From NCBI RefSeq assembly GCF_008065115.1, contig NZ_CP042913.1, positions 5,653,257 through 5,717,256 on the forward strand: a stretch of DNA of 64,000 nucleotides, read 5' to 3'. The notes beneath the pieces are model-generated. The model ran no database searches, was not told the origin of the DNA, and saw nothing but the letters and a program-made list of their open reading frames with translations. Positions 30,088 to 52,755 of the stretch are shown here, one piece after another. Within the stretch, counting starts at the first letter, position 1; each line of letters starts with the position of its first letter. Source of the stretch: Bythopirellula goksoeyrii (GTDB taxonomy: Bacteria > Planctomycetota > Planctomycetia > Pirellulales > Lacipirellulaceae). The translations under genes were made by a program, and so were the position numbers.

Positions 30088-31836
30088 TTACATCCCCGCT
30101 GCATCTCGTCCAACAGTATCCGTGGGTCCAGTGAATCCCGGACCTCCGGCGCCCACGTATCCGTGACTTGCGCCGGAGGCGTCTGGGCTGACCCAGAAGG
30201 CGTAGAGCGAACCGTTGGTCAGATGGAACCGGAACCGAACGGGTTTGCCTGCGAGCGCCGCGAGGTCGTTGTTTTGCCAACTCACCTTCACAAGTGTTTT
30301 GTCGCCCGTGACCGCCGTGCAGTTCTTGACTGAAAACGGCTCGATTGCTTTGCCGTTTTCATCCAGCACTTCGACTTTCAACTCGCCCTCGGGGCAATCC
30401 ACATTGACGAACAGATGCTTGCCCTGAAAAGTTACTGGTCTCGTGGTGAGCGTTTCGGTGTTCGATTCCGCATCCATTGACGCGAAGCCGTCGCGACGCA
30501 GCATAGCCATGCCTGTTGAACCATCCTTGTCCCAACTATCGCCTTCACGTGGTTTGGCGTAACCACAGAAATAGAAGTACAACTTGTCACCCACGACCAG
30601 AGGCCCGCTGGCACACGATTGCACATTGCCAAACCGCCAGCTCTTTTCTTCCCAGGCACTGGATAGGAACCGCCCGCGATAGGGGCGGTCCCAGTGGAAA
30701 CCGTCTCGGCTGAATCCGAGCATAATATCATTGCGTTTTTGTAGGTTGAGTGGGCCGCAGTCTCCGTTCGTCGGCCCTTGCCAGATCGAGAATTGCCCGA
30801 TCATGATGCTCTCGTAAGGTGAAGCATCAAGGTTATATAATTGGGGGGCTATGTTCGAGAACCTTGAATCGGTATGGCGAACATCAAGGTCATCGGCACC
30901 AGTCCAGTTTACGGACTTCCCCCCAGCCTCACCACGATAGATCTTTTCTTTACCATTTTCGAACTCGATACGAGGTCCATTGAAAGTGACTTCCTTCATC
31001 ATCTCCGAAATAGTCGCACCTTCGATGTAAGAGCGTGCCCTGTCCTCAACTGGGCCTTCAGTCCGCTGACTAAGTACCCACACCTTGCGAAACGGGTTGT
31101 AAAAAGCCGTTGATCGGTCACCCCAGATGTCTACCTGCTCCTTCGGCTCGGACCAGTGAAGGCCATCAGGACTTGAACGGTAGACGAAAGACCAACCTGA
31201 ATCGTCCCAAGTAGATCCTGATGGACTTCGCCTGTTCACTGAGTGGGGATTCTCGGAGGCAAAGTATTTGAATCGTTCCCGGGGATCTTTGGCCGCGAGA
31301 TCCAGCATGACGGCAGAGGAGTCGAAGAAGCTGGGCTTGATCACGATGTTGGTGCCCGGCACGATGTCAAGTTCGGGCTTCTCCCAGTGGATGCCGTCCT
31401 CACTGCTAGCGTAGCGGGTGGAATGGGGTCGCGCGCCCGTATACCACAACTTGAAGAGCTCATCAGCCGGGTCGTAACATACCCCTCCACTGAAGGTCTT
31501 GGCGTACGATCCATATTTGTTTGACTCCCCGGGATTCCCCCGCTCGATCACGGGATTCTCCTGGCAATATTCGGGCTGATGAAAAGAACGCTGCAGCGTA
31601 GTTACTTCAATAAGGAAATCATCAACAAAGAGTTGGCGTCCCACATCAATAGGAATAACCTCAGGCGGATTCTCAAGGTAGGGAACCGGCATCGGGTCGC
31701 GTGAAATTGCACCATAATCCGGCGGCCATTGGTCCGGCAGTTCGATACCGTTGTAGAGCCTTTCCCCAGCACTCGCCGAACCAGCCGAAACCAGTAGTGC
31801 CAAGAACAGAAATGCTAACAATTTCCAGCTACTCAT
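30088..31836 (-). CDS. Secreted family A beta-propeller protein, copy 1
   Basis: 582 residues from ATG 31836, preceded by GGGGAGAAG; signal peptide ends near SAGSASAGE. Family A is defined here by three proteins in this window sharing YNGIELP-WPP at the start, DVGRQLFVDDFLIE, GG-CYDPAD-LFK-WYT, S-DGIHWEKPELD, WGDRST-FYNPFRKVWV, YESIM-GQFSIWQGP and a C-terminal beta-sandwich (HLFVNVDCPEGELKVEVLDE). The DGIHW-type repeats suggest a five-bladed propeller of the GH32/43/62/68 kind, with conserved acidic residues (VDD, YDP, WGDR) as candidate catalysts. I do not know a characterised member. It heads the minus-strand CAZyme run. Confidence 0.75.
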   Translation of the reverse strand: MSSWKLLAFLFLALLVSAGSASAGERLYNGIELPDQWPPDYGAISRDPMPVPYLENPPEVIPIDVGRQLFVDDFLIEVTTLQRSFHQPEYCQENPVIERGNPGESNKYGSYAKTFSGGVCYDPADELFKLWYTGARPHSTRYASSEDGIHWEKPELDIVPGTNIVIKPSFFDSSAVMLDLAAKDPRERFKYFASENPHSVNRRSPSGSTWDDSGWSFVYRSSPDGLHWSEPKEQVDIWGDRSTAFYNPFRKVWVLSQRTEGPVEDRARSYIEGATISEMMKEVTFNGPRIEFENGKEKIYRGEAGGKSVNWTGADDLDVRHTDSRFSNIAPQLYNLDASPYESIMIGQFSIWQGPTNGDCGPLNLQKRNDIMLGFSRDGFHWDRPYRGRFLSSAWEEKSWRFGNVQSCASGPLVVGDKLYFYFCGYAKPREGDSWDKDGSTGMAMLRRDGFASMDAESNTETLTTRPVTFQGKHLFVNVDCPEGELKVEVLDENGKAIEPFSVKNCTAVTGDKTLVKVSWQNNDLAALAGKPVRFRFHLTNGSLYAFWVSPDASGASHGYVGAGGPGFTGPTDTVGRDAAGM

Positions 31837-31859
31837 GACGCTTCTCCCCAGCTTCGTAA

Positions 31860-32132
31860 GTGGTTTCTTGCGCCGCAACGAATTACGCCATCCGCTGGCA
31901 AATCGAAATCTATTTTCGAACGTTAAAATCGGGGTGCCAAATTGAGAACAGGCTCTTCGAAACGTTGGAGCGACTTTTGAATTGTTTGAACGTGTACTCG
32001 ATCATCGCGGAGAAGATCATGTATCTATGCCAACTTGTCCGTGAGTGCCCGGTCCTCGACTGCGAAATCATCTTCGAACCGAGCGAATGGAAATTCGTCT
32101 ACGGCGTTTCGTCAATAGCTTCTATCGAGTAG
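31860..32132 (+). pseudogene. 3' remnant of an IS4/Tn5-type transposase
   Basis: The 90 codons read NYAIRWQIEIYFRTLKSGC, QIENRLFETLERLLNCLNVY, SIIAEKIMYLCQLVRECPVL then CEIIFEPSEWKFVYG. This is the C-terminal part of IS50/Tn5-type IS4 transposases, containing the Y-x2-R-x3-E-x6-K-like region with the last catalytic Glu (QIEIYFRTLKSG). The first two thirds of the transposase, including both catalytic Asp, are missing, so it is inactive. Its 3' end lies inside repeat R1, copy c. Confidence 0.85.
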
Positions 32133-32334
32133 CCGTTTTGAATCCGTATCGGCGTCGTGCGGCGTATCAGGATTTTCGTTCGCCAATGCCTGCGAGGTTC
32201 AATCCAGTGCGTCTAAGATAAAGAAGACGCCAATCCGGGGCGCACGAATGCGTCCAAAAATATGCGCGCAATGTTGAATTGGGGTGCCCATGGTCGTACG
32301 GAACTCACGGTTCGCCGACAAAGCGACTGGGCGC
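32104..32334 (-). repeat. Dispersed repeat R1, copy c (attached to transposase tail)
   Basis: Reverse complement of copy a (13174-13403), including CAATTCAACATTGCGCGCAT in one orientation, GGCATTGGCGAACGAAAAT and GATACGGATTCAAAACGGCT. Because it begins within the last codons of the transposase remnant, it defines the repeat as the 3' flank of that insertion sequence. Confidence 0.75.
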
Positions 32335-32489
32335 TGCAATGCGCCATCGCTGAGATACAACGCCACGGACTTGCGAATTTTGCCATTAGCCAGGATTATT
32401 GATGCTGGCGAATGTGGGATAGCCGTATTGGTAGAAGACCCCGATTCCAAGAACTGAAGTTGTAGAGGTTAGAGCAGGAGACAGACGCC

Positions 32490-33656
32490 ATGGCTTCGAA
32501 AACGCGAAGGTCTGACTTCCTAAGATTCACCGTAGTTGTGATTTTCGTGGCGGCATTCGCTGTCGGCGTCAATGCAGAGGAGAATCCCATCGTCGGCACG
32601 TGGGAGCTGACGTCGGTTTGGAGGAAGGGGGAGCAGAAGGGAAAGCACATCGTCTCCATGAATCCGGACCTCACGGGGACCGTCAAGGACTTGGAGGTCG
32701 GTTGGACGTCGAAACTTCGGAACGTCAAGTCGGAAGGCGGCGCGGTGAGCTTCAGCTTTTTCTACGGTGAAACCGAAGAGTATGAGATCGGCTTCAGAGG
32801 CACGCTCGTCGACGACCAGATCAAAGGAAGATTCACCATAGCGGGGAAGCACGCTGTTGTCATCGGCGCCCCTCTCTCCGCGGCCGAGGCAGAAGCAGCG
32901 TCTGCCCAGCAGGCGTCAGCCCGACGATCGGTGTTCGATTGCTACGAGGCGCGGAGCTTCACGAGTTCAGAGGGCAACACGCTGCCGTATCGATTGTTTG
33001 TTCCTCGAGATTACAACCCAGATAAGCAATATCCGATCGTACTCTTTCACCATGGTGGCGGAGGAGCCGGCAGTGACAACCGGCGCAACCTCGAAAGTGC
33101 CTGCGTGCGAGAATGGATTCTGCCGGAAGTGCAGGCGAAGAATCCGTGCTTCATCGTTGCACCTCAATTCCCCGACAAGGAGACCTTTCGCAGTAGAAGC
33201 ACTGAGTCAGCGACCGAGTTCATGAACGTCATTTTCCGGACCATGCATGAAATTCTCGACAGTCTGGAAACGGAGTTTTCCATCGACAAGAGCCGCGAAT
33301 ATGTGACGGGCCTGTCATTTGGAGGCGAATGCGTCTGGATGTCCATTGTCGAACGGCCGGATCGGTTTGCTGCGGCTGTGCCGATTTGCGCAACCGACGG
33401 GATCATCGGCATGGCCGCCGCCGAACGAGCAACGAAATTCGCCCAGTTGCCAGTTTGGATATTCCACGGCAATGCGGACGACACGGTGCCGGTAGATTCC
33501 TCGCGAAAGACGGTCAAAGCGTTGCGGGACACCGGCGGAAACCCAAAGTACACGGAGTACCCCGGCGTCGACCACTACAGTTGGGACAGAGCCTACCGGG
33601 ATCCGGGCCTGATTGAATGGTTGTTCGCTCAGTCCCAATCGCAAAGCCCGCGGTGA
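32490..33656 (+). CDS. Secreted esterase, feruloyl-esterase/PHB-depolymerase-like
   Basis: 388 residues; ATG 32490 follows AGGAG. Signal peptide residues 1-30 (VAAFAVGVNAEEN). Residues 31-125 form a small beta-domain (NPIVGTWELTSVWRKG, lipocalin-like). Residues 145-385 are an alpha/beta-hydrolase with oxyanion region FHHGGGGAGSDN, nucleophile elbow GLSFGG, catalytic Asp in GNADDTVP and His in VDHYSW. Such enzymes cleave acyl groups from plant polysaccharides or short polyesters. In this neighbourhood of furanosidases, a role in deacylating arabinofuranosyl side chains is plausible. It stands alone downstream of the transposase remnant. Confidence 0.8.
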   Translation: MASKTRRSDFLRFTVVVIFVAAFAVGVNAEENPIVGTWELTSVWRKGEQKGKHIVSMNPDLTGTVKDLEVGWTSKLRNVKSEGGAVSFSFFYGETEEYEIGFRGTLVDDQIKGRFTIAGKHAVVIGAPLSAAEAEAASAQQASARRSVFDCYEARSFTSSEGNTLPYRLFVPRDYNPDKQYPIVLFHHGGGGAGSDNRRNLESACVREWILPEVQAKNPCFIVAPQFPDKETFRSRSTESATEFMNVIFRTMHEILDSLETEFSIDKSREYVTGLSFGGECVWMSIVERPDRFAAAVPICATDGIIGMAAAERATKFAQLPVWIFHGNADDTVPVDSSRKTVKALRDTGGNPKYTEYPGVDHYSWDRAYRDPGLIEWLFAQSQSQSPR

Positions 33657-33923
33657 TGCGATTGGCAATGGCGTTGTAGCGTGCGTGTGCATGGAGAATC
33701 GTCTATCGATTACAGACAAGGTCAATCCACCATCCAGTCCAATCATCCCCGTGCCTTGGTGATTGGGCTCTCCAAGTTGACATGGAAACCGTTCCGCGAT
33801 AGCTTTGTCGGCAACGCACGGTCTGCTCAAAACGTGCAGCCATCTCGTCCTGTCTCTTGTCCTGGCTAGGGCCCGCGAGGCAGCTCGGTTTCTCTAAGTC
33901 ACTGACCAAGGAGTTTCAGAAAA

Positions 33924-34385
33924 ATGTTGCATTCGAAAGCGAGTTTACGTCTGAAGTCGCAACGGCAGCGCCTTGTCGTCTTGCCGACGTTAGTGGTCGT
34001 GATGGTTGCGTCGGCGACCTTGCTGATGGGGTGCGGCGGGGCAAAGGGCTCGGCGAATACCGCCCACTTGAAAGGCAAGATCACCCTGGATGGACAACCA
34101 ATTCCGTCCGACGCCTCCGGTTCGATTACCTTCAAGCCGACCCGCAGCGGCCAGGGACGGACAACCTTCTCGACGATCGACGACGGCGTGTACGATTCGC
34201 CCGACACGCCCAAAGGACCGGTGAAAATCTATCTCTCGATCCAGCAACCAACCGGAAGGATGATCAGTGAGGATGGGGGATCTGAGTCCGCCGAAATGCG
34301 CAGTCTGGTTCCGGCCAGCTACGCTGGCGGCATCGACATGGAGATCGCAGAGGACAATCTGAACCTGGACTTCGATCTGAAGTAG
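33924..34385 (+). CDS. Small planctomycete lipoprotein
   Basis: 153 residues with a long basic N-terminus, a hydrophobic helix and a lipobox (ATLLMGC), followed by a transthyretin-like beta domain (LKGKITLDGQPIP, GSITFKPTRSGQG, GPVKIYLSIQQPTG). AAGGAG lies upstream of ATG 33924. Such lipoproteins usually accompany DUF1559 genes, as here (34654) and at 60930. The last 30 codons are duplicated at 13060. Its function is unknown; a periplasm-facing binding or structural protein is likely. Confidence 0.8.
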   Translation: MLHSKASLRLKSQRQRLVVLPTLVVVMVASATLLMGCGGAKGSANTAHLKGKITLDGQPIPSDASGSITFKPTRSGQGRTTFSTIDDGVYDSPDTPKGPVKIYLSIQQPTGRMISEDGGSESAEMRSLVPASYAGGIDMEIAEDNLNLDFDLK

Positions 34386-34403
34386 CCAGGACGAAGGGAC
34401 CGC

Positions 34404-34559
34404 GCGCCCAATCGTTTGGTCCGCAAACCGTGAGTTCCCTACGACCACTGGTATCCCAATTCAACATTGCGCGCATATTTATGGACGAATTCGTGCGACT
34501 CGGATTGGCATCTTCGTTATCTTGGACGTACTGGATCGAACTTCGCAGGCATTGGCGAC
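34404..34559 (+). repeat. Dispersed repeat R1, copy b
   Basis: Same segment as copy a: CGCCCAATCG, AACCGTGAGTTCC, CAATTCAACATTGCGCGCAT, GGCATCTTCGTTATCTT and CTTCGCAGGCATTGGCGA. As in copy a, it directly follows the end of the lipoprotein gene, and it runs straight into repeat T. Confidence 0.75.
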
Positions 34560-34653
34560 TGAGTCATCCGCATGCGAAATAACTTTTCCTTTGATCCTGA
34601 TCCCGAATAACTTTTCCTTTGATCCCCTTGAGTTGGCATAGGAGGGCTACATC
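34557..34653 (+). repeat. Mosaic repeat T, copy b (downstream half only)
   Basis: Carries GACTGAGTCATCCGCATGCG, then two tandem AATAACTTTTCCTTTGATCC boxes, then CTTGAGTTGGCATAGGAGGG, CTACATC and the GTG start of the DUF1559 gene. The hairpin and TTGTCTTGG units of the full repeat are absent. The palindrome is degraded by one missing G. GGAGG here is the ribosome binding site. Confidence 0.7.
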
Positions 34654-35749: not shown

Positions 35750-38700
35750 ATGCAAATTTACCGACTCCGCCATTTGGCGCTTGGTTGGCTGTCTGTCACT
35801 CTGTTCGCCCTTTTGGGCGAGCTCGGCTGTTGGGCGGTTGGCGCCGAACAGCTGTCGCGCGACAACGGGCGACCTGATCACCGGCTGATCTTTCTGGGCG
35901 ACAGCGGCCCCCATCTGCCGGCGGCGCGCGCCGCGGTCTTGATTCCGGCGCTGCGCGGGCGCGGCATCGCCGTCGACTACTCCGAAGACCCGGATTTGCT
36001 CGCCTCCCCCAATCTGGCCCAATACGACGGCTTGATACTCTATGCCAACATCGACGCGATTACCCCTGAACAAGAAGCGGGATTGCTGGCTTTTGTCGAA
36101 GGGGGTAAGGGCTTTGTGCCGTTGCACTGCGCCTCGTATTGCTTTCGCAACAGCCAGAAGTTTGTCGACCTGGTTGGCGCCCAGTTTCAGGACCACGGCG
36201 CCGAGGTCTTCTCGACTCGCCTGACGCCGCGTGGCGAGCCGGTGTTTGACGGTTTCGGCGGTTTCGAAAGTTGGGACGAAACCTACATCCATCACCGCCA
36301 CAACGAGCGCGACCGAATTGTGCTCGAGTACCGCGACCAAGGTCCCCAGGCCGAAGGACGCTCCGGCGAGCCGTGGACATGGATCCGCCGACAGGGAAAG
36401 GGACGCGTTTTCTACACGGCATGGGGCCATGACCTGCGCACCTGGAGCCACCCCGGATTCCAGAATCTCATCGAACGCGGCGTTCGCTGGGCCTGCACAG
36501 GCGACCCGGGCCTGGTTCCCGATTTTGTCAATCCGCAACCGTTCGAGCCGCCGAGGATGGTCGACGGCGCCGGCAGCCTCGACGCCATGCAATACGACGA
36601 CGTGGGACCCAAGGTTCCCCATTACATGCCCGAAAGTGACGAGGACGGTCGGGGGCAGGCCCGCCACCTGATGCAGCGTCCGCAGCCGCCGGAAGAGTCG
36701 CTAAACTACTACGCGACGCCTGAGGGCTTTTCTTTACAGTTGTTTGCCGCCGAACCGGCTCTGGGGCCTAAGCCGATCGCCATGAACTGGGATGCCCGGG
36801 GCCGGCTGTGGGTGTGCGAATCGATCGACTATCCCAACGACTTGCAGCCTGCCGGGACGGGCAACGACCGGATTCGGATTTGCGAAGATTCCGACGGCGA
36901 CGGAAGAGCAGACAAGTTCACCGTGTTTGCCGAGCAGCTAAGCGTTCCGACCGCAATCACCTTCTATCGCGGCGGGGCGATCGTCCAGAACGGCACGGAA
37001 ACGATCTATCTCAAAGACGTCGACGGCGACGATCGCGCCGACCTTCGCGAGACGTTGATCACCGGCTGGGATATGAACGACACGCACGGCGGCGTGAGCA
37101 ATTTCCACTATGGCTTGGACAACTGGATCTGGGCGATGCAGGGCTACAATCCATCCACCCCGCGGTATCGAGACCCGGAAGGCGTGATGCGCGAAGGACA
37201 GTCCTTCGGCATGGGGTTCTTCCGGTTTCGGCTCGACCAGAGCGATCCGCCGCGGGTAGTCGACCTGGAGTTTCTGCGCTCGACGGACAACAACACGTGG
37301 GGACTGGGAATCAGCGAAGAAGGTCTCGTGTTCGGTTCCACCGCCAATAACAATCCGAGCGTCTTCATGCCCATTCCCAATCGCTATTATGAACGGGTCC
37401 TTGGCTTCTCGGCTGACATGCTGGGAACGATTGCTGATACGCCAAAGTTTTCGTCCCTCACCGACAAGGTGCGCCAGGTCGACCACTTCGGCGCCTACAC
37501 GGCCGGCACGGGACACGCGTTGTATACAGCGCGGGCCTATCCGCCGCAGTGGTGGAACAAGACGGCCTTTGTCTGCGGACCGACAGGACACTTGGTGGGG
37601 GTGTTTGTGCTGCGGCGCGACGGCGCCGGATACCGGTCGTCCAGCCCGAGCAACCTGGTTGCCAGCCGGGACGAGTGGTCGGCGCCCATCATGGCCGAGG
37701 TGGGGCCTGACGGCTTCGTGTGGGTTCTTGACTGGTACAACTACATCGTGCAACACAATCCCACGCCTGTGGGGTTCACCACCGGCAAGGGCGAGGCCTA
37801 CGAATCGGATCTCCGCGACAAGCGACACGGGCGCATCTACCGACTGCGATACGACGACGGCGAACAGACGTCCGCGCCCCCGCCGCTTCAGGCCGCGAGT
37901 CCCGCAGAGTTGACGGCGACGCTGCGCCACCCGACGAAGCTATGGCGACTGCATGCACAGCGTTTGCTGGTGGAGCGGGGAAACCGCGATGTGGCGCCGG
38001 CGTTGATCGAGATGGTGCGCGACGGCAGCATCGACGCGATCGGACTGAATGTGGGGGCCATCCACGCGTTGGGCGCCTTACGCGGATTGGGAGCGTTCGA
38101 CAAGCACGCCCTGCCCGCGGCGGTTGAGGCGCTGCACACCGCGCTGGCGCATCCGTCGGCGGGCGTGCGCCGCATTGCGATTGCCGCGTTGCCGCACAAC
38201 GAGACCTCGCGTACTGCGCTGCTGGAATGCGACGTGCTGCGCGACGACGACGCGCAAGTGCAGTTGGCCGCCGTCCTGGCTCTGTCCGACATGCCGCCAA
38301 GCAGGCAGGGCGCCGAGGCGCTTGTTGCGCTTCTAGCCGACGGGGCTGGGAGCGACCGCTGGATTGCCGACGCGCTAACCAGCGCAGCGGCCATGCACGG
38401 CGTGCAGTTCCTGCAAGAACTGGCCAGCAGCTTGCCGCGTGATTCGACCGACCGGCGATCGCTGCCAGCCGCCATTTCCCGGCTCGCCGGCGTCTTGGGT
38501 GAACACCTGGCTCGCGGCGACTTGGATGCGGGCGATCTGGAAGCGTTGCTCAATGCACTTGCCGATGCAGACGAGGGCCTCGCCTCGACGGTCATCGCCG
38601 CCGTCGCCAAGCACTGGCCTGAGGACCGGGCGGCGTCGTTGCCGCGCTCAGCCGAAGGAGCGATCATTCGCCTGCTGACGCACGTTTCGCTCGACGCCAA

Positions 38701-40228
38701 GAGCGACCTGTTGCGGCTAGCTCGACAGTGGCATGCCGGCGACATGGAAGAACTGCATCAACAGCAAGGCGAAATGCTGCGCGCGCAGGTAGCCAACGCT
38801 GATCTGCCCGACAGCGAGCGGATCTTCGCCGCGCAGGCGTGGGTGCGATTGGACCCGGACGACGGTTCCATCGTCGAAGAGTTGCTTAGCACAATCACCC
38901 CCCAGACGTCGCCGTCGCTGCTGGTCGGGCTACTTCAGGCGGCCGCTGAGAGTCGCTACGACGATTTCGGCGCAGAGCTGGTCCTGCTTTACGACGGCCT
39001 GCTTCCACAGGGCCGCGAAGCGGTGTTGGAACTTTTGCTTCAGCAGCCTGATTCGACTAACGCGCTGCTCGACGCGGTCGCCGCCAACGAAATCGACGTC
39101 GCCGCTCTGAGTCTTGAGCAGATTGCCGCTCTACGAGCACATCCCGTCGAGACCATTCGCAACCGGGCCGCCGAGTTGATCGTCGCCGGCGGCGTCAACC
39201 CCAACCCGGACCGGCAGAAAGTGCTGGCCGATTTACTGCCGGTCGCCGAGATCGCCGGCGACGCCGCCGAGGGCAAAAAACTGTTCGCCAAGCACTGCGC
39301 CGTATGCCATTCGCACGGAGGCACGGGCGCCACAGTCGGTCCTGATCTCACCGGCATGTTCGTGCATCCCAAGCGGGACGTCCTCGGCAACATCATCGAC
39401 CCCAGCCGCGACGTCGAAGGCAACTACCGCAGCTACTCGGTCATCGCCAATGGAAGAGTCTATGCCGGACTGTTCGCCGGCGAGTCGCGCACGACCATCA
39501 CCATGGTCGACTCTAGCGGCAAGCGCCATGTCATCCAGCGGAGCGACGTCGACGAAGTGTTTTCTAACGACCTGTCTCTAATGCCCGACGGTTTCGAAAA
39601 ACAGCTTTCGCCAACCGAACTGGCGAACGTGCTGGAATTCCTCGCTACGCCCCAGCGTTACGTCCCGCTCTCCCTGGCACGCGTCGCGACAGCAAGCAGC
39701 GCCAAGCCGCTGTTCGAGGGCCAGGCGGACGGTCCTGATCGACTGGTGCTGCCCGACTGGAAACCCAGAACCGTCGGCGGGGTGCCGTTCACGCTCGTCG
39801 ATCCGCAGCAAGGCGCTGTGCGAAACATACTGCTGTTTCGCAGCGATCGCTCGCCGCTCACGCAGCGCATGCCCGAGGCGGTGCGTCTTCGGTGCGGTTA
39901 CCAGGCCAAGACCTTGCACTTGCTAAGCGGCGTGAGCGGTTGGGGATTTCCCACCGAGAGCGAAAAGACGCCGTCGCTGATCATTCGCCTGCATTACCAG
40001 GGCGGTCGGACCGAGGAGCACGAATTAAGAAACGGCGTCCATTTTGCCGATTACATCCGTCGCGTCGATGTGCCCGGATCGGAGTTCGCATTCGCCATGC
40101 GGAACCAGCAGATGCGCTATCTGGCGATCAAGCCGGAACGCGAGGAGCAGATCGTCGACATCGAATTCGTCACGGCAAGCGACTCCACCGTGCCGATCGT
40201 GTTGGCGGTCACCGCCGAACTGCCATGA
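35750..40228 (+). CDS. Giant secreted ThuA / PVC dehydrogenase-like / HEAT / cytochrome c protein
   Basis: 1492 residues with signal peptide (LGELGCWAVGAEQ). Domains in order: ThuA-like residues about 40-270 (RLIFLGDSGPHLPAARAA, GKGFVPLHCASYCF); a six-bladed propeller of the planctomycete membrane-bound dehydrogenase type, about 310-690 (EGFSLQLFAAEP, WVCESIDYPNDL, DGDGRADKFTVFA); HEAT-like repeats about 700-1150; and a class I cytochrome c with CAVCH near 1183 and the distal Met in LTGMF. A C-terminal beta-domain ends the protein. It probably oxidises a sugar-type substrate and passes electrons to haem; the substrate is unknown. The permease and ribokinase genes follow within 140 bases. Confidence 0.88.
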   Translation: MQIYRLRHLALGWLSVTLFALLGELGCWAVGAEQLSRDNGRPDHRLIFLGDSGPHLPAARAAVLIPALRGRGIAVDYSEDPDLLASPNLAQYDGLILYANIDAITPEQEAGLLAFVEGGKGFVPLHCASYCFRNSQKFVDLVGAQFQDHGAEVFSTRLTPRGEPVFDGFGGFESWDETYIHHRHNERDRIVLEYRDQGPQAEGRSGEPWTWIRRQGKGRVFYTAWGHDLRTWSHPGFQNLIERGVRWACTGDPGLVPDFVNPQPFEPPRMVDGAGSLDAMQYDDVGPKVPHYMPESDEDGRGQARHLMQRPQPPEESLNYYATPEGFSLQLFAAEPALGPKPIAMNWDARGRLWVCESIDYPNDLQPAGTGNDRIRICEDSDGDGRADKFTVFAEQLSVPTAITFYRGGAIVQNGTETIYLKDVDGDDRADLRETLITGWDMNDTHGGVSNFHYGLDNWIWAMQGYNPSTPRYRDPEGVMREGQSFGMGFFRFRLDQSDPPRVVDLEFLRSTDNNTWGLGISEEGLVFGSTANNNPSVFMPIPNRYYERVLGFSADMLGTIADTPKFSSLTDKVRQVDHFGAYTAGTGHALYTARAYPPQWWNKTAFVCGPTGHLVGVFVLRRDGAGYRSSSPSNLVASRDEWSAPIMAEVGPDGFVWVLDWYNYIVQHNPTPVGFTTGKGEAYESDLRDKRHGRIYRLRYDDGEQTSAPPPLQAASPAELTATLRHPTKLWRLHAQRLLVERGNRDVAPALIEMVRDGSIDAIGLNVGAIHALGALRGLGAFDKHALPAAVEALHTALAHPSAGVRRIAIAALPHNETSRTALLECDVLRDDDAQVQLAAVLALSDMPPSRQGAEALVALLADGAGSDRWIADALTSAAAMHGVQFLQELASSLPRDSTDRRSLPAAISRLAGVLGEHLARGDLDAGDLEALLNALADADEGLASTVIAAVAKHWPEDRAASLPRSAEGAIIRLLTHVSLDAKSDLLRLARQWHAGDMEELHQQQGEMLRAQVANADLPDSERIFAAQAWVRLDPDDGSIVEELLSTITPQTSPSLLVGLLQAAAESRYDDFGAELVLLYDGLLPQGREAVLELLLQQPDSTNALLDAVAANEIDVAALSLEQIAALRAHPVETIRNRAAELIVAGGVNPNPDRQKVLADLLPVAEIAGDAAEGKKLFAKHCAVCHSHGGTGATVGPDLTGMFVHPKRDVLGNIIDPSRDVEGNYRSYSVIANGRVYAGLFAGESRTTITMVDSSGKRHVIQRSDVDEVFSNDLSLMPDGFEKQLSPTELANVLEFLATPQRYVPLSLARVATASSAKPLFEGQADGPDRLVLPDWKPRTVGGVPFTLVDPQQGAVRNILLFRSDRSPLTQRMPEAVRLRCGYQAKTLHLLSGVSGWGFPTESEKTPSLIIRLHYQGGRTEEHELRNGVHFADYIRRVDVPGSEFAFAMRNQQMRYLAIKPEREEQIVDIEFVTASDSTVPIVLAVTAELP

Positions 40229-43591: not shown

Positions 43592-44127
43592 CGGCGAGTC
43601 CTCGCGCGCAGGATCCGGGGGGGTTATTTGCCGCCCCCTGTTTTGCATCTTTGCGTTTCAAACGGATCCGTGTCGAAGCTGCACGAGCCTAGACCACGCG
43701 TCTCGCAACGCATGCCGCGATCTCGCGAGATCGACGATCGTTCGCATTCAAGCCACCGCGAATAACCGGCGGTGGACTTTGCCTACGATCGCCCGCCCCG
43801 CCCCCGCGCAGTTGCCACGAGACGAGGCCGCAGCGACGCCCCATTCGTGACCGTGTCAACATTGCGCAAATATTTATGGATGATTTAGTAGGCAGATGCG
43901 CTGCTTGGACGTTACTATACATATCTCATTCGCACTCATCGCGTTTGAAGAGTGCGCCGCCGAGCGAGCGTCGCAAAGCTTGTGCAGGGGAATACAGCTT
44001 CTCCGCGTCGGCGCGGACTGACGAGCGGGCCCACGCCACTTACCAGCAGAGTCTCAAGGAAGAGTTGCCCGCGGTCGGCCGGATCTGAGAACTCCGGCTC
44101 ATCCGCTATTGAATCCCGGAGTTGCCG
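43592..44127. other. Gap with a short copy of repeat R1 (copy d)
   Basis: At 43856-43890 TCAACATTGCGCAAATATTT and TGGATGATTT match the core of R1 with several changes. The rest of the 536 bases shows no credible gene; high-GC frames on both strands lack starts and motifs. Confidence 0.5.
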
Positions 44128-45060
44128 ATGCCCCTACGCCTTACCGGTCTTATCGCCGCGACCTGCACGCCGATGCGTCCCGGCCACGCGATCGACCTGG
44201 ACGCGATCTGCCCGCTGACCGATCAGCTCGTGGCCGACGGGGTCGAGGGCCTCTACGTCTGCGGCAGCACCGGCGAAGGCGTGTCGATGACCACCGACGA
44301 GCGGAAACGGGTCGCCGAAGCGTTTCTCGCCGCGGCGGGCGGGCGCGTGCCTGTGATCGTCCACGTAGGCCACAATTCTCTGGCCGACGCCCGCGATCTG
44401 GCCCAACACGCGCAACGCGCCGGCGCCACGTTTACCTCCGCGGTCGCCCCGAATTATTTCCCGATCGCTAGCGTCGAGGTGCTGGTGGACGCGATGGCCA
44501 CGGTCGCCGCCGCCGCGCCGGAACTGCCGTTCTATTACTATCACATTCCGGCGATGACCGGCGTCGACCTCGACATGATCGAGTTCTTGCGACAGGCCGG
44601 CGATCGTATCGACAACTTCGCCGGGATCAAATACACCGCCAACTCGCTCGACGAATATCAGCAGTGCGTCGCGCTGGACGACGGGCGATTCGACGTGCTG
44701 TACGGCTACGACGAACTGCTGCTGCCGTCGTTGGCAGTGGGCGCTCGGGGCGCGGTCGGCTGCACCTACAATATCGCCGCGCCGCTCTACCGCCGCATCA
44801 TCGAGGCTTTCGACGCCGGCGACCTGGCCCGTGCCCGCGCCGACCAGCTTCGGGCGGTGCAAATGATTCGGACGTTGTCCCGCTTCCCGTTCCTGCCGGC
44901 CGTCAAGGCGGTGCTGGCAGTCATCGGCGCGCCGTGCGGGACATGTCGGGCTCCGCAGCCACAGTTGCGCGACGCCGAGGTGCAAGAGCTTTGCGCCGAA
45001 CTTGAAGCAATCGGCTTTTTCGATTGGGCCCGCCGCACGACCGACGCCTTGCTCCGCTAA
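44128..45060 (+). CDS. nanA: N-acetylneuraminate lyase (DHDPS superfamily)
   Basis: 310 residues from ATG 44128 with GGAG upstream. TIM-barrel motifs fit sialate aldolases: GLIAATCTPM, CGSTGEGVSMTTDERK, YYYHIPAMTGVD with the catalytic Tyr, and FAGIKYTANS with the Schiff-base Lys. It should split N-acetylneuraminate into N-acetylmannosamine and pyruvate. The next gene, 31 bases downstream, fuses a sialate mutarotase-like Kelch domain to a sodium symporter, which supports the sialic acid role over dihydrodipicolinate synthesis. Confidence 0.85.
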   Translation: MPLRLTGLIAATCTPMRPGHAIDLDAICPLTDQLVADGVEGLYVCGSTGEGVSMTTDERKRVAEAFLAAAGGRVPVIVHVGHNSLADARDLAQHAQRAGATFTSAVAPNYFPIASVEVLVDAMATVAAAAPELPFYYYHIPAMTGVDLDMIEFLRQAGDRIDNFAGIKYTANSLDEYQQCVALDDGRFDVLYGYDELLLPSLAVGARGAVGCTYNIAAPLYRRIIEAFDAGDLARARADQLRAVQMIRTLSRFPFLPAVKAVLAVIGAPCGTCRAPQPQLRDAEVQELCAELEAIGFFDWARRTTDALLR

Positions 45061-45090: not shown

Positions 45091-47727
45091 GTGCGCATCT
45101 CGCTTTTGTTTACGTACCTGCTGGCGGCGACGGCCAGCCTACCAACGGCCATCGCCCAGACGTCCTCGTCGTCGGCAACGCTCAAAGCCACGTTGCAGTG
45201 GCAATCGCTTCCCGATCTGCCGGACGCGCTAGGCGTGGCCGGTCCATTTGTCGGCGTGCACAGCGATACGCTCATTGTGGCGGGAGGTGCGAACTTCCCT
45301 GAGCCGCATTGGGAGAACGACAAGTCCTGGCACGCAGACGCCTGGGTAATGACTCGCGAGGCAGACGGCAGCCTCCAATGGCGCACAGGCCTGGCGCTCG
45401 ATCACCCCGTCGCCTACGGAGCCGTAGCGGCCACTTCTCGCGGCGTCGTGTGCATGGGCGGCGACGACGGACAGCAGGTCGCTCAGCGATGTTTTGTCAT
45501 CGTCTGGGACGCTGCCCAAGAGACAATCGAACAACGCCCCCTGCCGCAACTGCCCGAGCCGTGCGCCTACGGCGCCGCGACAGCAATCGGGGAGGTCGTC
45601 TATTTGGCCTGCGGGCAGCGCGGCGCCACGCTCGATACGGCGAGCAACCACCTTTGGCGACTCGATCCCTCAGCGGATAGCCCCCAGTGGGAAGTCCTAC
45701 CGCCGTGCCCCGGCCCTCCGCGGGCGTTTAATATGACCGTTGCGCAGCATAACGGTTTTGACACGTGCATTTACGTCTTTGGCGGACGACGCCAGAAAGC
45801 AGACGTTGCCGGCCCCTCAGGCGTCGAGCCGTTGCACGACTTGTACGAGTACAATCCCCACCTCAACCTCTGGCGCCGCCGCGCCGATCTGCCGCAGCCG
45901 CTCATGGCCGGGACCGCTGTGGCCGTAGGGCAGTCGCACCTGTTCGCGCTCAGCGGGGCCGACGGAACGCTAATGACCAGGGCCGACTCGCTCAAGCTCG
46001 ATCACCCGGGCTTCCCGAAGCGGATGTTGGCGTACCATACCATTACCGACACGTGGATTGACGCCGGGGAGACGCCGGCCAATCCGGTCGCCACGCCTGT
46101 GGTGCGATGGGGCGATCGCTTCATATTAGCCTCCGGCGAGATCAAGCCTCGCGTGTGCACGAGCGAGGTTTGGGCCGTCGCCCCCACAATTGGCGCAGAG
46201 CCTTTTGGCAGCGTGAACTTCACCGTGTTAACGCTCTACCTGCTGGCGATGGTCGGCGTTGGCGTTTATTTCGCAAGCAAGAACAAGGACACCGACGACT
46301 ATTTCCGCGGCGGCAAAAAGATGCTGTGGTGGGCGTCGGGCTGCAGCATTTTTGCAACGATGCTTAGCTCGGTCACCTTCATGGCAATCCCCGCCAAGGC
46401 GTACGCGCAGGACCAAGTCTACTTGCTGGGGAATTTGATGATCCCGGTCGTTGCGCCAATCGCAGTCTATCTGGCCCTGCCGTTCTTCCGTCGCATCGAC
46501 GCCACCAGCGCGTACGAATACCTTGAAAAACGCTTCAACCGACCGGTCCGCTTGTTCGCCAGCGCGTCGTTCACGCTTTTCCACATCTTTCGCATGGGGA
46601 TCGTGATGTCGCTGGCGGCGCTTGCGCTGGCGACAATCACGCCCCTGACGCCGACGCAGAGCGTACTCATCATGGGCGTGCTGAGCGTCATCTACTGCAC
46701 TCTGGGGGGCGTCGAGGCGGTCATCTGGACCGATACGATTCAGACGGTCGTCTTACTGGGCGGAGCGCTGATTTGCTTCGCCGTGATGATCGCCGGATCT
46801 GACGGCGGGGCCGGCGATTTCTTCTCTACCGCGCTCGGCGACGGCAAGCTCCACTTCGCCAACTTCCACCTCGACCCGACCAGCGCATCGCTGGCAATCT
46901 GGGTCGTCCTGATCGGCGGCATCGGCCAGAACATTTCTTCCTACACGGCCGATCAAGCAGTCGTGCAGCGCTACATGACCACCCCCGATGAGCGGCGCGC
47001 CGCCGGCTCGATCTGGTTCGCCGCACTGCTGTCGATTCCCGCTACTTTTCTGTTTTACTACATGGGTACGGGACTCTACGTCTTCTATAAGTCGCACCCC
47101 GAGAGGCTCGATCCGACGTTCATGACCGATCAAATCCTGCCGTTGTTTATTGCCAACGAGCTGCCAATGGGCGTCGCCGGCCTGATTGTCGCCGGGATCT
47201 TCGCCGCGGCCCAGTCCACCGTCTCCACAAGCATGAACTCCACCGCGACCGCCGTCGTCACCGATTTCCTGCGGCCCTTCAATCTCCTGCAATCGGAACG
47301 CGCTTACCTCAACTCGGCACGGGCGCTGACTTTTGGCTTCGGCGTCCTGGGAACCGTCATCGGTCTGCTGTTCGTCAGCACCGAGATTCGTTCGCTCTTT
47401 GATCAATTCCTCAAGGTAATCGGCCTGTTCATGGGCGTCTTGGGCGGCCTGTTCGCGTTGGGCGTGCTGACCCGCCGCGTCTCGGGATGGGCCGCGCTGC
47501 TGGGCGCGGTGTTCGGCGCCGCGGTCATGGGCCTGCTGCCGATCTATTCGAACATTAACAGCTTTCTCTACGCTGCCATCGGCATCGCCGTCTGTTTCGG
47601 CGTCGGCTACCTGCTAAGCCTGTTCCTGCCGGCGCCGGCGCACGACATCGAGGGATTGACGCTGCTTAAACAGCCGGAACCTATATCATCAATCGTGACT
47701 TCTGAGCAGACGAAAAGTCACACATAG
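45091..47727 (+). CDS. NanM-like Kelch epimerase fused to a sodium:solute symporter
   Basis: 878 residues from GTG 45091. Signal peptide residues 1-22 (TASLPTAIAQ). Residues about 35-375 are a Kelch six-bladed propeller with the NanM pattern (WQSLPDLPDALGVAGPFVGV, LIVAGGANFPEPHWEN, VYLACGQRG, YVFGGRRQK). Residues about 385-850 form an SSS-family transporter with around 13 helices (DTDDYFRGGKKMLWWASGCS, NISSYTADQAVVQRY). NanM converts alpha to beta N-acetylneuraminate outside the cell; the symporter would import the product. Adjacent to nanA, the three activities form a compact sialic acid uptake and cleavage unit. Confidence 0.85.
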   Translation: MRISLLFTYLLAATASLPTAIAQTSSSSATLKATLQWQSLPDLPDALGVAGPFVGVHSDTLIVAGGANFPEPHWENDKSWHADAWVMTREADGSLQWRTGLALDHPVAYGAVAATSRGVVCMGGDDGQQVAQRCFVIVWDAAQETIEQRPLPQLPEPCAYGAATAIGEVVYLACGQRGATLDTASNHLWRLDPSADSPQWEVLPPCPGPPRAFNMTVAQHNGFDTCIYVFGGRRQKADVAGPSGVEPLHDLYEYNPHLNLWRRRADLPQPLMAGTAVAVGQSHLFALSGADGTLMTRADSLKLDHPGFPKRMLAYHTITDTWIDAGETPANPVATPVVRWGDRFILASGEIKPRVCTSEVWAVAPTIGAEPFGSVNFTVLTLYLLAMVGVGVYFASKNKDTDDYFRGGKKMLWWASGCSIFATMLSSVTFMAIPAKAYAQDQVYLLGNLMIPVVAPIAVYLALPFFRRIDATSAYEYLEKRFNRPVRLFASASFTLFHIFRMGIVMSLAALALATITPLTPTQSVLIMGVLSVIYCTLGGVEAVIWTDTIQTVVLLGGALICFAVMIAGSDGGAGDFFSTALGDGKLHFANFHLDPTSASLAIWVVLIGGIGQNISSYTADQAVVQRYMTTPDERRAAGSIWFAALLSIPATFLFYYMGTGLYVFYKSHPERLDPTFMTDQILPLFIANELPMGVAGLIVAGIFAAAQSTVSTSMNSTATAVVTDFLRPFNLLQSERAYLNSARALTFGFGVLGTVIGLLFVSTEIRSLFDQFLKVIGLFMGVLGGLFALGVLTRRVSGWAALLGAVFGAAVMGLLPIYSNINSFLYAAIGIAVCFGVGYLLSLFLPAPAHDIEGLTLLKQPEPISSIVTSEQTKSHT

Positions 47728-47763
47728 GAATCACAGCTCGCGCGCCGCTAGAGGAGACGTCCC

Positions 47764-48177
47764 ATGTCCGGTATCAGAAAAACTCTTCTTATCACGGCCT
47801 TTGTTGCCGTTTGCGCAATTCGATCATTTGCCGCCCAGCGCGAATTCACCTTCGATCGGAAGTATTTGAATCTGCCTGTACAAAACGAAGCCCCCGAATG
47901 CCTCGTAAGTCTCGAAGTCGAAGGCGAAAAAGTCCGTGAGTTCACCATCAATATCGCGCCTGGAGAACCTGACTACCGGGTCTACCTGGAGCTTAAAGAA
48001 TTTGCGGGAAAGAAGGGCAAGCTGATTGCCTCAAAGATATCCAACGACCAAATGAAGGGTTTCAAGGCTGCACACCAGGACGATACCTTCCCCGGAGAAG
48101 ATGAGCTCAACGTCAAGGGCGGCAGCGCCCACATCAAAGAACTGACCATCCACGAAATGAAGTCTATCTGGGACTGA
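47764..48177 (+). CDS. Secreted mini-protein: GH32 accessory domain without catalytic domain
   Basis: 137 residues from ATG 47764 with GAGGAG upstream; signal peptide about residues 1-25. Residues 27-115 (REFTFDRKYLNLPVQNEAPE to DTFPGEDE) align with the N-terminal accessory domain of the class I GH32 enzymes (EREVVLDEKYILLPVENEAP to STYPGEDE). Where those continue into the propeller, this one jumps to KGGSAHIKELTIHEMKSIWD, the extreme GH32 C-terminus (compare DGGSTTVNSLKARELKSIWD at 52794). The propeller and most of the sandwich, about 430 residues, are gone. The frame is intact with a good ribosome site, so it may be a non-catalytic glycan-binding protein. Confidence 0.8.
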   Translation: MSGIRKTLLITAFVAVCAIRSFAAQREFTFDRKYLNLPVQNEAPECLVSLEVEGEKVREFTINIAPGEPDYRVYLELKEFAGKKGKLIASKISNDQMKGFKAAHQDDTFPGEDELNVKGGSAHIKELTIHEMKSIWD

Positions 48178-48287
48178 ATAATCTAAGGTCCATAATCGAT
48201 GTGCATCATTGATGCCATAGGGTCGCCTCATAAACAACAAGTGAATTAGGAAAGAGTATTTTGAAACTAGAGAAAGAGACAAAAGAC

Positions 48288-49937: not shown

Positions 49938-50045
49938 GCTAACGCAGGCATGTAGCAACAATCGCAGGCAAGGTTCAATCTGCCTGTGACGAACATGGGC
50001 GGACCCTAGGGAAGATTCCAACCAATAGTTAGGAAAGACTTGAAG

Positions 50046-50180
50046 ATGAAGCAGTTTTCGATACTATCGGCAATTGCCCTGTTTATCGTGCCATCGGCGA
50101 TGGCGGAAAAGCTGTACGTTCGCCAAGATACATCCACTGACACGATAGACAATTATTTTCTTGACAGGATGACAGGCTAG
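50046..50180 (+). pseudogene. 44-codon secreted fragment ending in an inverted repeat
   Basis: ATG 50046 follows TAGGAAAGACTTGAAG and opens a perfect signal peptide (MKQFSILSAIALFIVPSAMA) plus 24 residues (EKLYVRQDTSTDTIDN). The frame then meets a TAG that lies inside the left arm of the inverted repeat at 50177. It looks like the 5' end of a secreted-protein gene cut off at that element; a functional micropeptide cannot be excluded. Confidence 0.5.
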
Positions 50181-50250
50181 GCTTTGGTTCAAAACTCCTT
50201 TTTTCTCGCTAGTGCTGCAGGCTACAAACGTGTTTTGAAACAAAGCCTAG
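50177..50250. repeat. 19-bp near-perfect inverted repeat (palindromic element)
   Basis: CTAGGCTTTGGTTCAAAAC (50177-50195) pairs with GTTTTGAAACAAAGCCTAG (50232-50250) with a single mismatch; loop 36 nt containing six T. GGCTAG and GCTTTG are shared with the start of the hairpin at 21896, suggesting a common palindromic element. No target duplication is obvious. Confidence 0.75.
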
Positions 50251-50280
50251 GGCAGGATTATTGAGTCGAGAGGAAACGTA

Positions 50281-52755
50281 ATGAAGAATCGGAAAGTAAT
50301 GAAAACAACATTAGCCTATGCATTCGTATTGGTCTTTTCAGGTATTACAAGCGCTCAGCCTGTCTGCCTCACGATTAGCCCCACCAATGCCGTTGCGGGC
50401 GATGAAATTACTGTGACAGGTTATGACGAAAATGGTGATTTTTTTGACTTGTCGACTTTGGATGTTATCGAGAGTAATTTTCATGGCATAGGAGATCCTT
50501 ATTATTCCTTACTCAAAGTCGGCGACGATCTGACAAACATAGATATTGTGGCCGGCAGAGTTGTGTTTGAGCTTATCGAAGAAATGTTGAGCGAGGATGT
50601 CGAAGAATGGGACTTCCTCTGCGTTCCCGGGGGAGAGGATGCAGCGTTCCGCATAGCCGGGGGAGACGGGCCATTCGAAACAGTTGCCGAGGCCATCGCG
50701 GCCGGCGGCACCTGCGAGGGCCAGATCTTGGCAGCCGCCCCTTTACCTAATCCTATCATTATTACCCCGAATGTGATGACCGTTTATGAAGAAGGCGAGA
50801 CTGAAGGTGACTTTGACGTATCGCTGGTGAATCAACCACCATCGGGACATACGATCACAGTTACGGTTGACCCCAATATCGGTGGACCGAGTGAAGATTT
50901 TATACTCATCGGTGGCAGCGGCCCCAATGGCAGTATCGACTTGACTTTCAATTCGGGCAACTGGAACGTTCCGCAAACGGTTGTCTTCAAAGCTATTGAC
51001 GATGACATCGCAGAACCCAATGACCGGCCCCGATTGTCGGAAGAGCATACAATACACCTTGTATCTTCCTATCCCGGCCATCCCACAGATGCAAACTTCG
51101 TGGGCGAGAATAGTGTGATTGCTACTGTTTTTGAAAACGACTTTCCCGACGGTGAGATTCTTTACAATGGTATCGAGCTGCCGTATCCGTGGCCGCCGCA
51201 GAACGACAAACTGACCCGCGAGGTAATGGTAGTTCCTTACCTGGACGCCCCTCCCGCCGTCATTCGTATTGACGTGGGAAGACAACTCTTCGTGGACGAT
51301 TTTCTCATTGAGACAACCACGCTGCATCGCAGCTTCCACCAGCCGGAGATTTACAGGGAACCGGTGATCAAACCGGAGGAAAAAAGCCCTGGAATGTACG
51401 CAGCACCATTCAGTGGAGGCGTTTGCTACGATCCGGCCGATAATCTATTCAAACTATGGTATACCCGCTATAGGCCGAGTGCCACCTGTTACGCAACCAG
51501 CAAAGACGGTATTAACTGGACCAAGCCCGAACTCGACGTCGAGGCCGGTACTAATATCGTTGTAAATCCTGAGAAGGGATTCAATAGCACGTCGATCATG
51601 CTGGATCAGTCGACCAAGAATCCCAATGAAAGGTTCAAATATTTCGCATCTGAGTATTTCGGCACCCGGGCCGACGGTGGAGTCTGGGGATTTAGCTATC
51701 GCATCAGCGCAGATGGCATCCACTGGTCCGAACCTATGGGCAATAATGACATCTGGGGCGACCGGTCGACCGTTTTCTACAATCCGTTTCGCAAGGTGTG
51801 GGTGCTCAGCCAGCGGACCGAGGGAAAAGGAGATGATTCAGTAGGCAGGAGCCGTTCCTACCTGGAAGGTGCAACAGCCATGGACATGGTGGAAAAGGTC
51901 ACCTACAACGAGTTTGAAAATGTTGAGGGAGAGTCCGTGCTTTGGACCGGCGCTGATGAACTTGATCCTCATCACACCGACGCCAGGTTCGCAGATGTAG
52001 AGCCACAATTATACACCCTTGATGCCTTTCCATACGAAAGCATCATGATCGGGCAGTTTTCTATTTGGCAGGGGCCGGAAAACGACATCTGCGGCGAGCA
52101 TAACATACAGAAGCGAAATGATATTCTGTTGGGCTACAGCCGTGACGGTTTCCACTGGGACCGCCCGTCCCGTGAACGCTTTATTGGATCTACATGGGAT
52201 AGAAGAAATTGGCGCTACGGCAACGTTCAATCATGCGCCTCGGGCTGCCTGGTGGTAGGCGACAAACTTTACTTCTATTTTAGCGCCCACCCGGCGCCTC
52301 GAAGTGAGGATTGGGATACGGATGCAGTAACCGGTCTGGCGATGTTGCGTCGTGATGGTTTCGCTTCTATGGATGCCAGCGGAAAAGCAGGAGCACTGAC
52401 GACGCGACCTTTGACTTTCGAGGGCGAACACCTGTTCGTCAACGTGGATTGTCCCGAGGGCGAGCTGAAAGTGGAAGTGCTAGACGAGAACCACAATGTA
52501 ATCGAGCCGTTTACCCTCGACCACTGTGAGCCCGTCTCAGTCGATAGGACACTGGTGCAGGTGAATTGGCAGCAAAGCGAGGATCTCGCCGCACTTGCCG
52601 GCAAGCCCGTGCGATTCCGGTTCCATCTGAGCAGCGGTTCGCTGTATGCCTTCTGGGTGAGTCCCGACGATTCCGCCGCAAGCCATGGATACGTCGGCGC
52701 CGGAGGGCCAGGATTCAGCGGACCGACCGACACCGTCGGAAAGAGTGCGCCATAA
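50281..52755 (+). CDS. Secreted family A protein with extra N-terminal domains, copy 3
   Basis: 824 residues; ATG 50281 after GAGGAAAC; signal peptide to about residue 24. Residues 25-150 are a beta-rich segment of unknown type (PVCLTISPTNAVAGDEITVT, VVFELIEEMLSEDVEEWDF). Residues about 160-285 resemble a Calx-beta-like calcium domain (VMTVYEEGETEGDFDVSLVN, AIDDDIAEPN). From residue 290 the family A module begins (YNGIELPYPWPPQNDKLTRE, DVGRQLFVDDFLIETTTL, FSGGVCYDPADNLFKLWYTR) and runs to the end. It is thus copies 1 and 2 with an added adhesion-like front end. A GH32 gene follows 38 bases later. Confidence 0.75.
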   Translation: MKNRKVMKTTLAYAFVLVFSGITSAQPVCLTISPTNAVAGDEITVTGYDENGDFFDLSTLDVIESNFHGIGDPYYSLLKVGDDLTNIDIVAGRVVFELIEEMLSEDVEEWDFLCVPGGEDAAFRIAGGDGPFETVAEAIAAGGTCEGQILAAAPLPNPIIITPNVMTVYEEGETEGDFDVSLVNQPPSGHTITVTVDPNIGGPSEDFILIGGSGPNGSIDLTFNSGNWNVPQTVVFKAIDDDIAEPNDRPRLSEEHTIHLVSSYPGHPTDANFVGENSVIATVFENDFPDGEILYNGIELPYPWPPQNDKLTREVMVVPYLDAPPAVIRIDVGRQLFVDDFLIETTTLHRSFHQPEIYREPVIKPEEKSPGMYAAPFSGGVCYDPADNLFKLWYTRYRPSATCYATSKDGINWTKPELDVEAGTNIVVNPEKGFNSTSIMLDQSTKNPNERFKYFASEYFGTRADGGVWGFSYRISADGIHWSEPMGNNDIWGDRSTVFYNPFRKVWVLSQRTEGKGDDSVGRSRSYLEGATAMDMVEKVTYNEFENVEGESVLWTGADELDPHHTDARFADVEPQLYTLDAFPYESIMIGQFSIWQGPENDICGEHNIQKRNDILLGYSRDGFHWDRPSRERFIGSTWDRRNWRYGNVQSCASGCLVVGDKLYFYFSAHPAPRSEDWDTDAVTGLAMLRRDGFASMDASGKAGALTTRPLTFEGEHLFVNVDCPEGELKVEVLDENHNVIEPFTLDHCEPVSVDRTLVQVNWQQSEDLAALAGKPVRFRFHLSSGSLYAFWVSPDDSAASHGYVGAGGPGFSGPTDTVGKSAP

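Follow-up and report, generated by a model that had tools for sequence, protein, structure and literature searches.

A conserved, unassigned family of five-bladed propeller proteins, probably of glycosidase type, in the GH32 island of Bythopirellula goksoeyrii

What is the role of three paralogous, secreted-looking proteins whose genes stand among those of glycoside hydrolase family 32 (GH32) in the planctomycete Bythopirellula goksoeyrii? The genes lie in a stretch of 64,000 nucleotides, here called the window (positions 5653257-5717256 of the 6.47 Mb single-contig genome, NZ_CP042913.1). A first-pass annotation had taken their products for a new glycosidase or lyase family for furanosides, always found beside GH32 genes. 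On balance, we consider the three proteins to be probably secreted members of an unassigned five-bladed propeller family of glycosidase-type enzymes, the activity being predicted. Our best reading is that this family is real, conserved and of glycosidase type, ordinary in fold and partly glimpsed in print; among the open-licence papers searched, none was found that names it.

Intact open reading frames (ORFs) were found at 30088, 48288 and 50281, in two clusters of opposite orientation, as the annotation had described. The mature modules of copies 2 and 1 are 69.7% identical, those of copies 2 and 3 75.3%, and those of copies 1 and 3 67.9%; searched with copy 2, the other two copies gave E-values of 4.3e-253 and 8.2e-276, so that their relatedness is not a matter of chance. 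By eye, a signal-peptide-like stretch opens all three. Four of the five motifs originally listed (FVDDFLIE, YDPAD, WGDRST and FSIWQGP) are common to the three copies; the fifth, DGIHWEKPELD, is exact in two only and reads DGINWTKPELD in copy 3. The catalytic motifs NDPNG, RDP and ECP are indeed missing from all three, although copies 1 and 2 do have the letters RDP in their N-terminal leader (RDPMPVPY). No Pfam or NCBIfam model matched any copy above its cut-off, a point on which the annotation is supported, and the approximately 290 extra N-terminal residues of copy 3 gave no Pfam match at E<=1e-4.

To define the family, 84,980 species genomes were scanned with two peptide patterns. The scan returned 375 stretches, 313 of which encode a relative (tblastn, E<=1e-3); the best 80 of these were kept, and the family count is therefore a lower bound. 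Going by the titles of the records, the core family spans at least seven phyla: Planctomycetota, Verrucomicrobiota, Armatimonadota, Poribacteria, Hydrogenedentota, Acidobacteriota and Bacteroidota. Single core contigs are labelled Actinomycetota and Pseudomonadota; such labels are unsafe, because contigs almost the same as the Pseudomonadota one bear the names of two other phyla. Among 294 Planctomycetota genomes drawn evenly, with five candidates scored per genome, the core was present at E<=1e-100 in 13, with one or two copies each except in B. goksoeyrii; of 59 related genomes, 27 contain looser relatives. A core alignment and profile (A2) was built from 87 members; neither it nor the neighbour count below includes L049, which has one stop, or L052 and L071, which are out of frame, and the long-branch rows L005 and L039 were retained in alignment and tree. 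A second profile (A6) represents 41 of the 43 distant relatives found, after omission of a 958-residue stretch of L059 and of L007 (the same ORF as L006). The B. goksoeyrii genome also has more distant paralogues: a search with the core profile at E<=0.001 gave 12 rows, of which several are fragments of a single gene. The three window copies form a clade with L040, L041 and L061 (Shimodaira-Hasegawa-like approximate likelihood ratio test, 100). The ratio of nonsynonymous to synonymous substitution rates (dN/dS) is 0.10-0.13 in pairwise comparisons among the copies and L040, indicating that all copies are maintained by purifying selection.

AlphaFold2, run on the core alignment, gave a model of copy 2 with a predicted local distance difference test score (pLDDT) of 94.7 and a predicted template modelling (TM) score of 0.93. 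Residues are numbered here as in mature copy 2; 32 is to be added for the 558-residue ORF. The strands, with the blades counted by hand from DSSP, read as five blades (83-402) followed by a C-terminal beta-sandwich (408-498), which is the architecture of GH32 enzymes. At E<=0.001 Foldseek matched the model to 139 PDB structures. Among these, the 50 listed comprise GH32-, GH43-, GH130- and GH159-type enzymes (some of these family numbers are those we take the entries to have), putative glycosidases (1vkd at rank 10) and the propeller of the F. plautii N-acetylgalactosamine (GalNAc) deacetylase; their target-normalised TM scores do not exceed 0.66 (7fip). For a model of one distant member (pLDDT 87.5), the best Foldseek match was BT_0996 (1.6e-11), with GH130-type proteins at target-normalised TM scores of 0.49-0.68 and BT_1020 at rank 49. 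BT_0996 is presumably GH137, and the N-terminal propeller of BT_1020 presumably GH143; both act in rhamnogalacturonan-II breakdown.

The sequence profiles point in the same direction. Over whole sequences, the core profile matched GH130 entry 9fj8 at 3.2e-5 and GH32 entry 6r3u at 1.7e-4, and the profile of distant relatives, which is homologous to the core profile over 432 columns, matched 7fip (GH130) at 4.7e-12, 6n1a at 8.3e-11, 7vco (GH32) at 4.9e-8 and, weakly, GH137 at about 1e-4. The best single stretch of the match to 7fip (52-348, own E 9.8e-10) runs from blade 1 into blade 5. The NCBIfam model for beta-1,2-mannobiose phosphorylase was matched by 16 of the 87 core members (best 1.4e-4) and by seven of the 41 distant members at E<=0.01 (best 4.1e-10). 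Thus the three proteins are homologous, are predicted to share this fold, and are related in sequence, remotely yet significantly, to GH130/GH32-type propellers. The proposed five-bladed propeller is supported, as one of the GH32/43/130-type superfamily; membership of that superfamily is settled, although the proteins fall into none of the individual families tested. The proposed furanoside substrate or lyase activity is not supported: by sequence the nearest family is GH130, acting on mannosides, and by fold, for the wider family, GH137, GH43 and GH130.

The fold would also suit a metal-dependent esterase or deacetylase like the F. plautii enzyme, which reportedly has a metal site. Structure 6n1b ranks second in the Foldseek search with the core model, and 6n1a second among the PDB profile matches of the distant relatives; however, GH32 and GH130 match about equally well and no invariant His/Asp metal site is seen in the core alignment, and we regard this activity as very improbable.

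Membership of each named family was examined directly. PF00251 (GH32) gave no match to the three copies at E<=1; elsewhere it matched weakly in three of the 87 core members at E<=0.1 (best 0.0022) and in two of the 41 distant ones (best 4.6e-4). The Asp of NDPNG, the Asp of RDP and the Glu of EC are absent; where GH32 has the EC Glu, the profile alignment shows a hydrophobic position that varies. The family resembles GH32 levanases and inulinases in fold, in its FSGG/FSDG and RDS segments (FSGS and RDP in GH32) and, in this lineage, in genomic company, but lacks these canonical residues. PF04041 (GH130) gave no match at E<=0.1 among the 87 core members and none at E<=0.01 among the 41 distant ones. 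GH130 (7fip, 9fj8, 5a7v) shares the five-bladed propeller, gives the lowest whole-sequence PDB E-values for both profiles and has a segment, EDPRITKID, which by eye resembles the family's blade-2 motif RDSxTVWLD; unlike GH130, the family has an extra C-terminal beta-sandwich, a signal-peptide-like start and, at the position that a hand alignment equates with the key Asp, a residue that is not invariant. PF04616 (GH43) matched none of the 87 at E<=0.1. PF24067, the BT_1020-like propeller of GH143 type, matched ten of the 87 core members weakly (best 0.0013), stayed below cut-off for the query (12.8 against 27 bits) and had no match in 39 genomes, that of B. goksoeyrii included.

Five-bladed propellers carry their active site at the starts of the innermost strands. 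In the model these are S88-D/G89 (blade 1), R143-D/N144 (blade 2) and D201-R202 (blade 3); further candidate positions are D263 and D266, in the loop to blade 4, and W348, N352 and Q354 in blade 5. The conserved acidic residues noted in the first-pass annotation are borne out: in the core alignment D201 is kept in 84 of 87 members, D263 in 84 of 87 and D266 in 85 of 86, besides R227 (86/87) and W348 (87/87). Position 89 is D in 61 and G in 26 of 87, and D89, D144 and D201 are all Asp in 47. Distant members keep D49 (39/43) and an Asp in column 200 or 201 (33/43). If the proteins are enzymes, the sugar would bind in the central funnel, where the carboxylates at the innermost-strand starts may let water attack a terminal glycosidic bond directly, probably with inversion, and so cleave it; these would be D201 of blade 3 and D263/D266 of the loop ahead of blade 4, assisted by D144 of blade 2 in members that have it.

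Several observations weigh against this assignment. Position 144 holds Asp in 64, Asn in 12 and Gly in five of the 87 core members, and the copies with N include copies 2 and 3 and the GH32-fused relative described below. Only 20 and 18 of the 43 distant relatives retain an acid at 263 and 266, respectively, and the placing of D201, D263 and D266 around one pocket is read solely from strand order. D144 corresponds to the catalytic Asp of GH130 in a hand alignment, whereas the printed HMMER alignment puts D151 there. In the Foldseek listing, query-normalised TM scores do not exceed 0.40, and superpositions on GH32 enzymes have root-mean-square deviations of about 16-19 Å. No single stretch of the core profile reaches E=0.1 against 9fj8, and hhalign of this profile with the GH32s of the window or with GH130s found short motif matches only.

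In an alternative reading, the module would in this lineage be a degenerate, non-catalytic propeller that binds glycans and aids the GH32s in the manner of a carbohydrate-binding module. Copies 2 and 3 and the fused relative combine N144 with G89, two positions that are Asp in most of the family; the module is fused to GH32 in L040/L041/L061; and in GH130 enzyme BT3780, for which the consulted part of PMC4599007 names N74, D142, K199, E227, E268 and D363, the D142N mutant is inactive. On the other hand, purifying selection on all copies is strong (dN/dS as above), copy 1 retains D144 (with G89), and D201, R202, R227, D263, D266, W348, N352 and Q354 are intact in all three. Moreover, N144 occurs throughout a clade outside the lineage (L064, L080, L091, L092, L097 and L098). 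We think loss of catalysis unlikely.

A possible glimpse of the family in print is Lac161_ORF10 (AGW45555), a 63.7 kDa protein from soil metagenome DNA assigned to Chthoniobacter. According to the accessible excerpts of PMC5342196, it is unclassified, was modelled as a five-bladed propeller on template 1vkd, has a GH_J-like match at residues 130-234 and a KDP motif at 196-198, and hydrolyses lactose with a Km of 3.2 mM and a kcat/Km of 2.7e3 per s per M. That our family is its beta-galactosidase family is a quite unlikely reading. Size, five-bladed model and unclassified status agree by description, 1vkd is among our Foldseek matches, and KDP lies at 187-189 of copy 2 (558-residue numbering); 18 of the 87 core members in all, copies 1 and 2 among them, have it at this place (ORF positions 178-240 in the 16 where it could be located). 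Against this reading stand the reported kcat/Km on lactose and the four other disaccharides left uncleaved in the same excerpts. Plasmid searches for the plasmid gene that the consulted parts of PMC5352709 name were without result, and in C. flavus the four DUF6807 genes found are either on different contigs from the family genes or some 165 kb distant from them, so that no Lac161-like operon is seen there. If Lac161_ORF10 does belong to the family, KDP is unlikely to be catalytic, because the model puts it in the turn between strands 1 and 2 of blade 2. A further group compared by description is that of the P. borealis propellers, FURAN31, likewise unclassified and of planctomycete/verrucomicrobial origin; the available sections of PMC5352709 count 18 beta-propeller proteins in P. 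borealis. In the excerpts of PMC5342196, AGW45552 is a dehydrogenase-like protein of the same cosmid as Lac161_ORF10, and the citation in PMC5352709 may therefore intend the Lac161_ORF10 gene, AGW45555.

The company of GH32 genes was next assessed across the family. A GH32 gene lies within 8 kb at four of 80 family loci, namely L040, L041, L061 and, about 7 kb off, L113. Outside the first three, which are near-identical contigs, this is one of 77 loci, with flanks often shorter than that distance (among the 77 loci with an intact ORF, 38 have at least 5 kb on each side). As a control, the hidden Markov models used for this count, built from the window GH32s, detected 12 of 12 GH32 loci of other genomes, all strong PF00251 matches. 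A GH32 gene is present somewhere in 42 of the 49 carrier genomes examined, which cover 50 of the 80 loci. Pfam analysis of 139 nearest-neighbour ORFs (<=1.5 kb; 74 loci, with near-duplicates L041, L061 and L043 omitted) found GH32 at least once, counting the 25 leading families out of 74 and out of 76. No partner dominated: at least four sulfatases, four BNR_2, three GFO_IDH_MocA, three PhyH and three URO-D were counted. GH32 adjacency is thereby ruled out as a mark of the whole family, and neither 'always beside GH32' nor 'for furanosides' follows from it. The link is real but looks confined to this bacterial lineage.

Within the lineage, all six GH32 genes (PF00251) that the search of the genome turned up fall in one 47-kb stretch (5672-5719 kb), as do the three intact copies, and their recurrence thus reflects one island and not independent events. 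Even in the window, 'always beside GH32' holds in part only: copy 1 adjoins a GH127 gene, with GH32 one gene further on, copy 2 follows a GH32 remnant, and copy 3 is directly followed by a GH32 gene. The gene would here have been multiplied and placed with GH32 fructan hydrolases and arabinofuranosidases, once as a fusion, and its product probably trims a sugar that accompanies a fructan or a plant or algal glycan rich in arabinofuranose. Ahead of copies 2 and 3 stand genes for a sialate-lyase-like aldolase and for a fusion of Kelch domain and symporter, and from this context a nonulosonate or keto-acid sugar would be about as plausible as a furanoside.

In L040 and L061, near-identical contigs (L041 has a part of this stretch only), the propeller module is fused in frame to GH32. 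Counterparts of the 22015 GH32 and of the 20243 protein follow the fusion in the same order as in the window; the correspondence is partial, as the GH127 and LamG-GH32 genes are missing and the last GH32 is closest to that at L124:770-2488 (74%), not to 18416. The fused module is closest to copy 2 (82%) and to a truncated fourth copy (84% over 305 bp), and the fused GH32 to that at 26107-27615; the fusion therefore probably joined parts from different places. The synonymous divergence is 0.19 for the fused-GH32 pair, compared with 0.83 for the closest intact module pair. The three contigs are filed under Verrucomicrobiales, Rhodobacterales and Planctomycetaceae metagenome-assembled genomes, probably as binning errors in public records.

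It is conceivable, though doubtful, that the family would make a new CAZy family next to GH130/GH137. Such a family would have a catalytic apparatus unlike that of every known five-bladed family (the carboxylates of blades 3-4 and an Arg/Lys-rich rim of R202, R227, R229 and K315), a residue at the GH130 acid position that can change among D, N and G, and an acidic or phosphate-assisted substrate, and its GH32 fusion would be a bifunctional fructan-glycan enzyme. Although the core is found, by record title, in at least seven phyla, the three copies are named by no model of Pfam or NCBIfam. Should the family prove enzymatic, it would explain part of the hidden glycan-degrading capacity noted for planctomycetes in the consulted sections of PMC5352709, and it offers defined candidate residues (D201, D263, D266 and D144) and a natural GH32 fusion for testing.

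Features of the window discussed in the text
Feature	Position	Strand	Remarks
Copy 1	30088-31878	-	Signal-peptide-like start (by eye), five-bladed propeller, C-terminal beta-sandwich; D at position 144
Copy 2	48261/48288-49937	+	ATG 48288; mature from ~48357; N144 codon 48786-48788; D201 codon 48957-48959; AlphaFold2-modelled
Copy 3	50281-52755	+	~290 extra N-terminal residues, then same module from ~51148; N at 144
GH127 (beta-L-arabinofuranosidase family)	27681-30113	-	Immediate downstream neighbour of copy 1
GH32	26107-27615	-	Counterpart (91.8% nucleotide identity) fused in frame behind propeller module in L040/L061
GH32 with LamG-like N-terminal domain	23789-25990	-	No counterpart seen in L040/L061
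GH32	22015-23760	-	Counterpart (88.3% nucleotide identity) comes after fusion gene in L040/L061
518-residue protein without assigned family	20243-21799	-	Counterpart (96.4% nucleotide identity) comes after that GH32 in L040/L061
GH32	18416-20197	-	
GH32 deletion remnant, 137-residue ORF	47764-48176	+	DUF4980 and last GH32 residues; 111 bp before ATG of copy 2
GH32	52794-54977	+	Begins 38 bp past copy 3
DHDPS/N-acetylneuraminate-lyase-like aldolase	44122-45060	+	Under NanA cut-offs
Kelch mutarotase-like domain and sodium:solute symporter fusion	45091-47727	+	NCBIfam mutarotase/NanM under cut-off; Pfam NANM above
Alpha-L-arabinofuranosidase-type (ArfA-like)	61688-63364	+	Under NCBIfam cut-off; Pfam Alpha-L-AF_C above

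Some further features of the island deserve mention. The remnant ahead of copy 2 is a GH32 gene that has lost its middle, its DUF4980 domain being joined to the GH32 end. The truncated fourth copy (at 5730921-5731340, or, as L124:13913-14314, at 5730912-5731313 of the genome) lies 13.7 kb beyond the window end and stops after approximately 130 residues; two recombinase-like genes, read by eye, stand after it (L124:16061-17323 and 17488-18831), and a mobile element may thus have cut it. Among the GH32s, those at 23789-25990 and 26107-27615 read SCAN by eye at the EC acid/base motif, a segment that MAFFT did not align to EC, and that at 52794-54977 has DC; as all three seem to depart from the motif, their activity may be altered. 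The protein at 20243-21799, within the GH32 cluster, has no NCBIfam match and a Pfam match at 0.05 only, and its 96% nucleotide identity to L061 compares with 88-92% for the adjoining GH32 counterparts. The ArfA-like and LamG-GH32 proteins share a similar signal-peptide segment, in one version SAKVKTTQHRTL, as if it had been copied between the genes. A DUF6807-DUF7133-HEAT-cytochrome c fusion (L124:9943-13878) and a ThuA-DUF7133-HEAT-cytochrome c fusion (window 35750-40228) both recall the dehydrogenase/HEAT/cytochrome c protein Lac161_ORF7. Finally, positions 55646-59644 of the window encode a big, repetitive, secreted-looking protein which, by eye, ends in a PEP-CTERM-like sorting signal.

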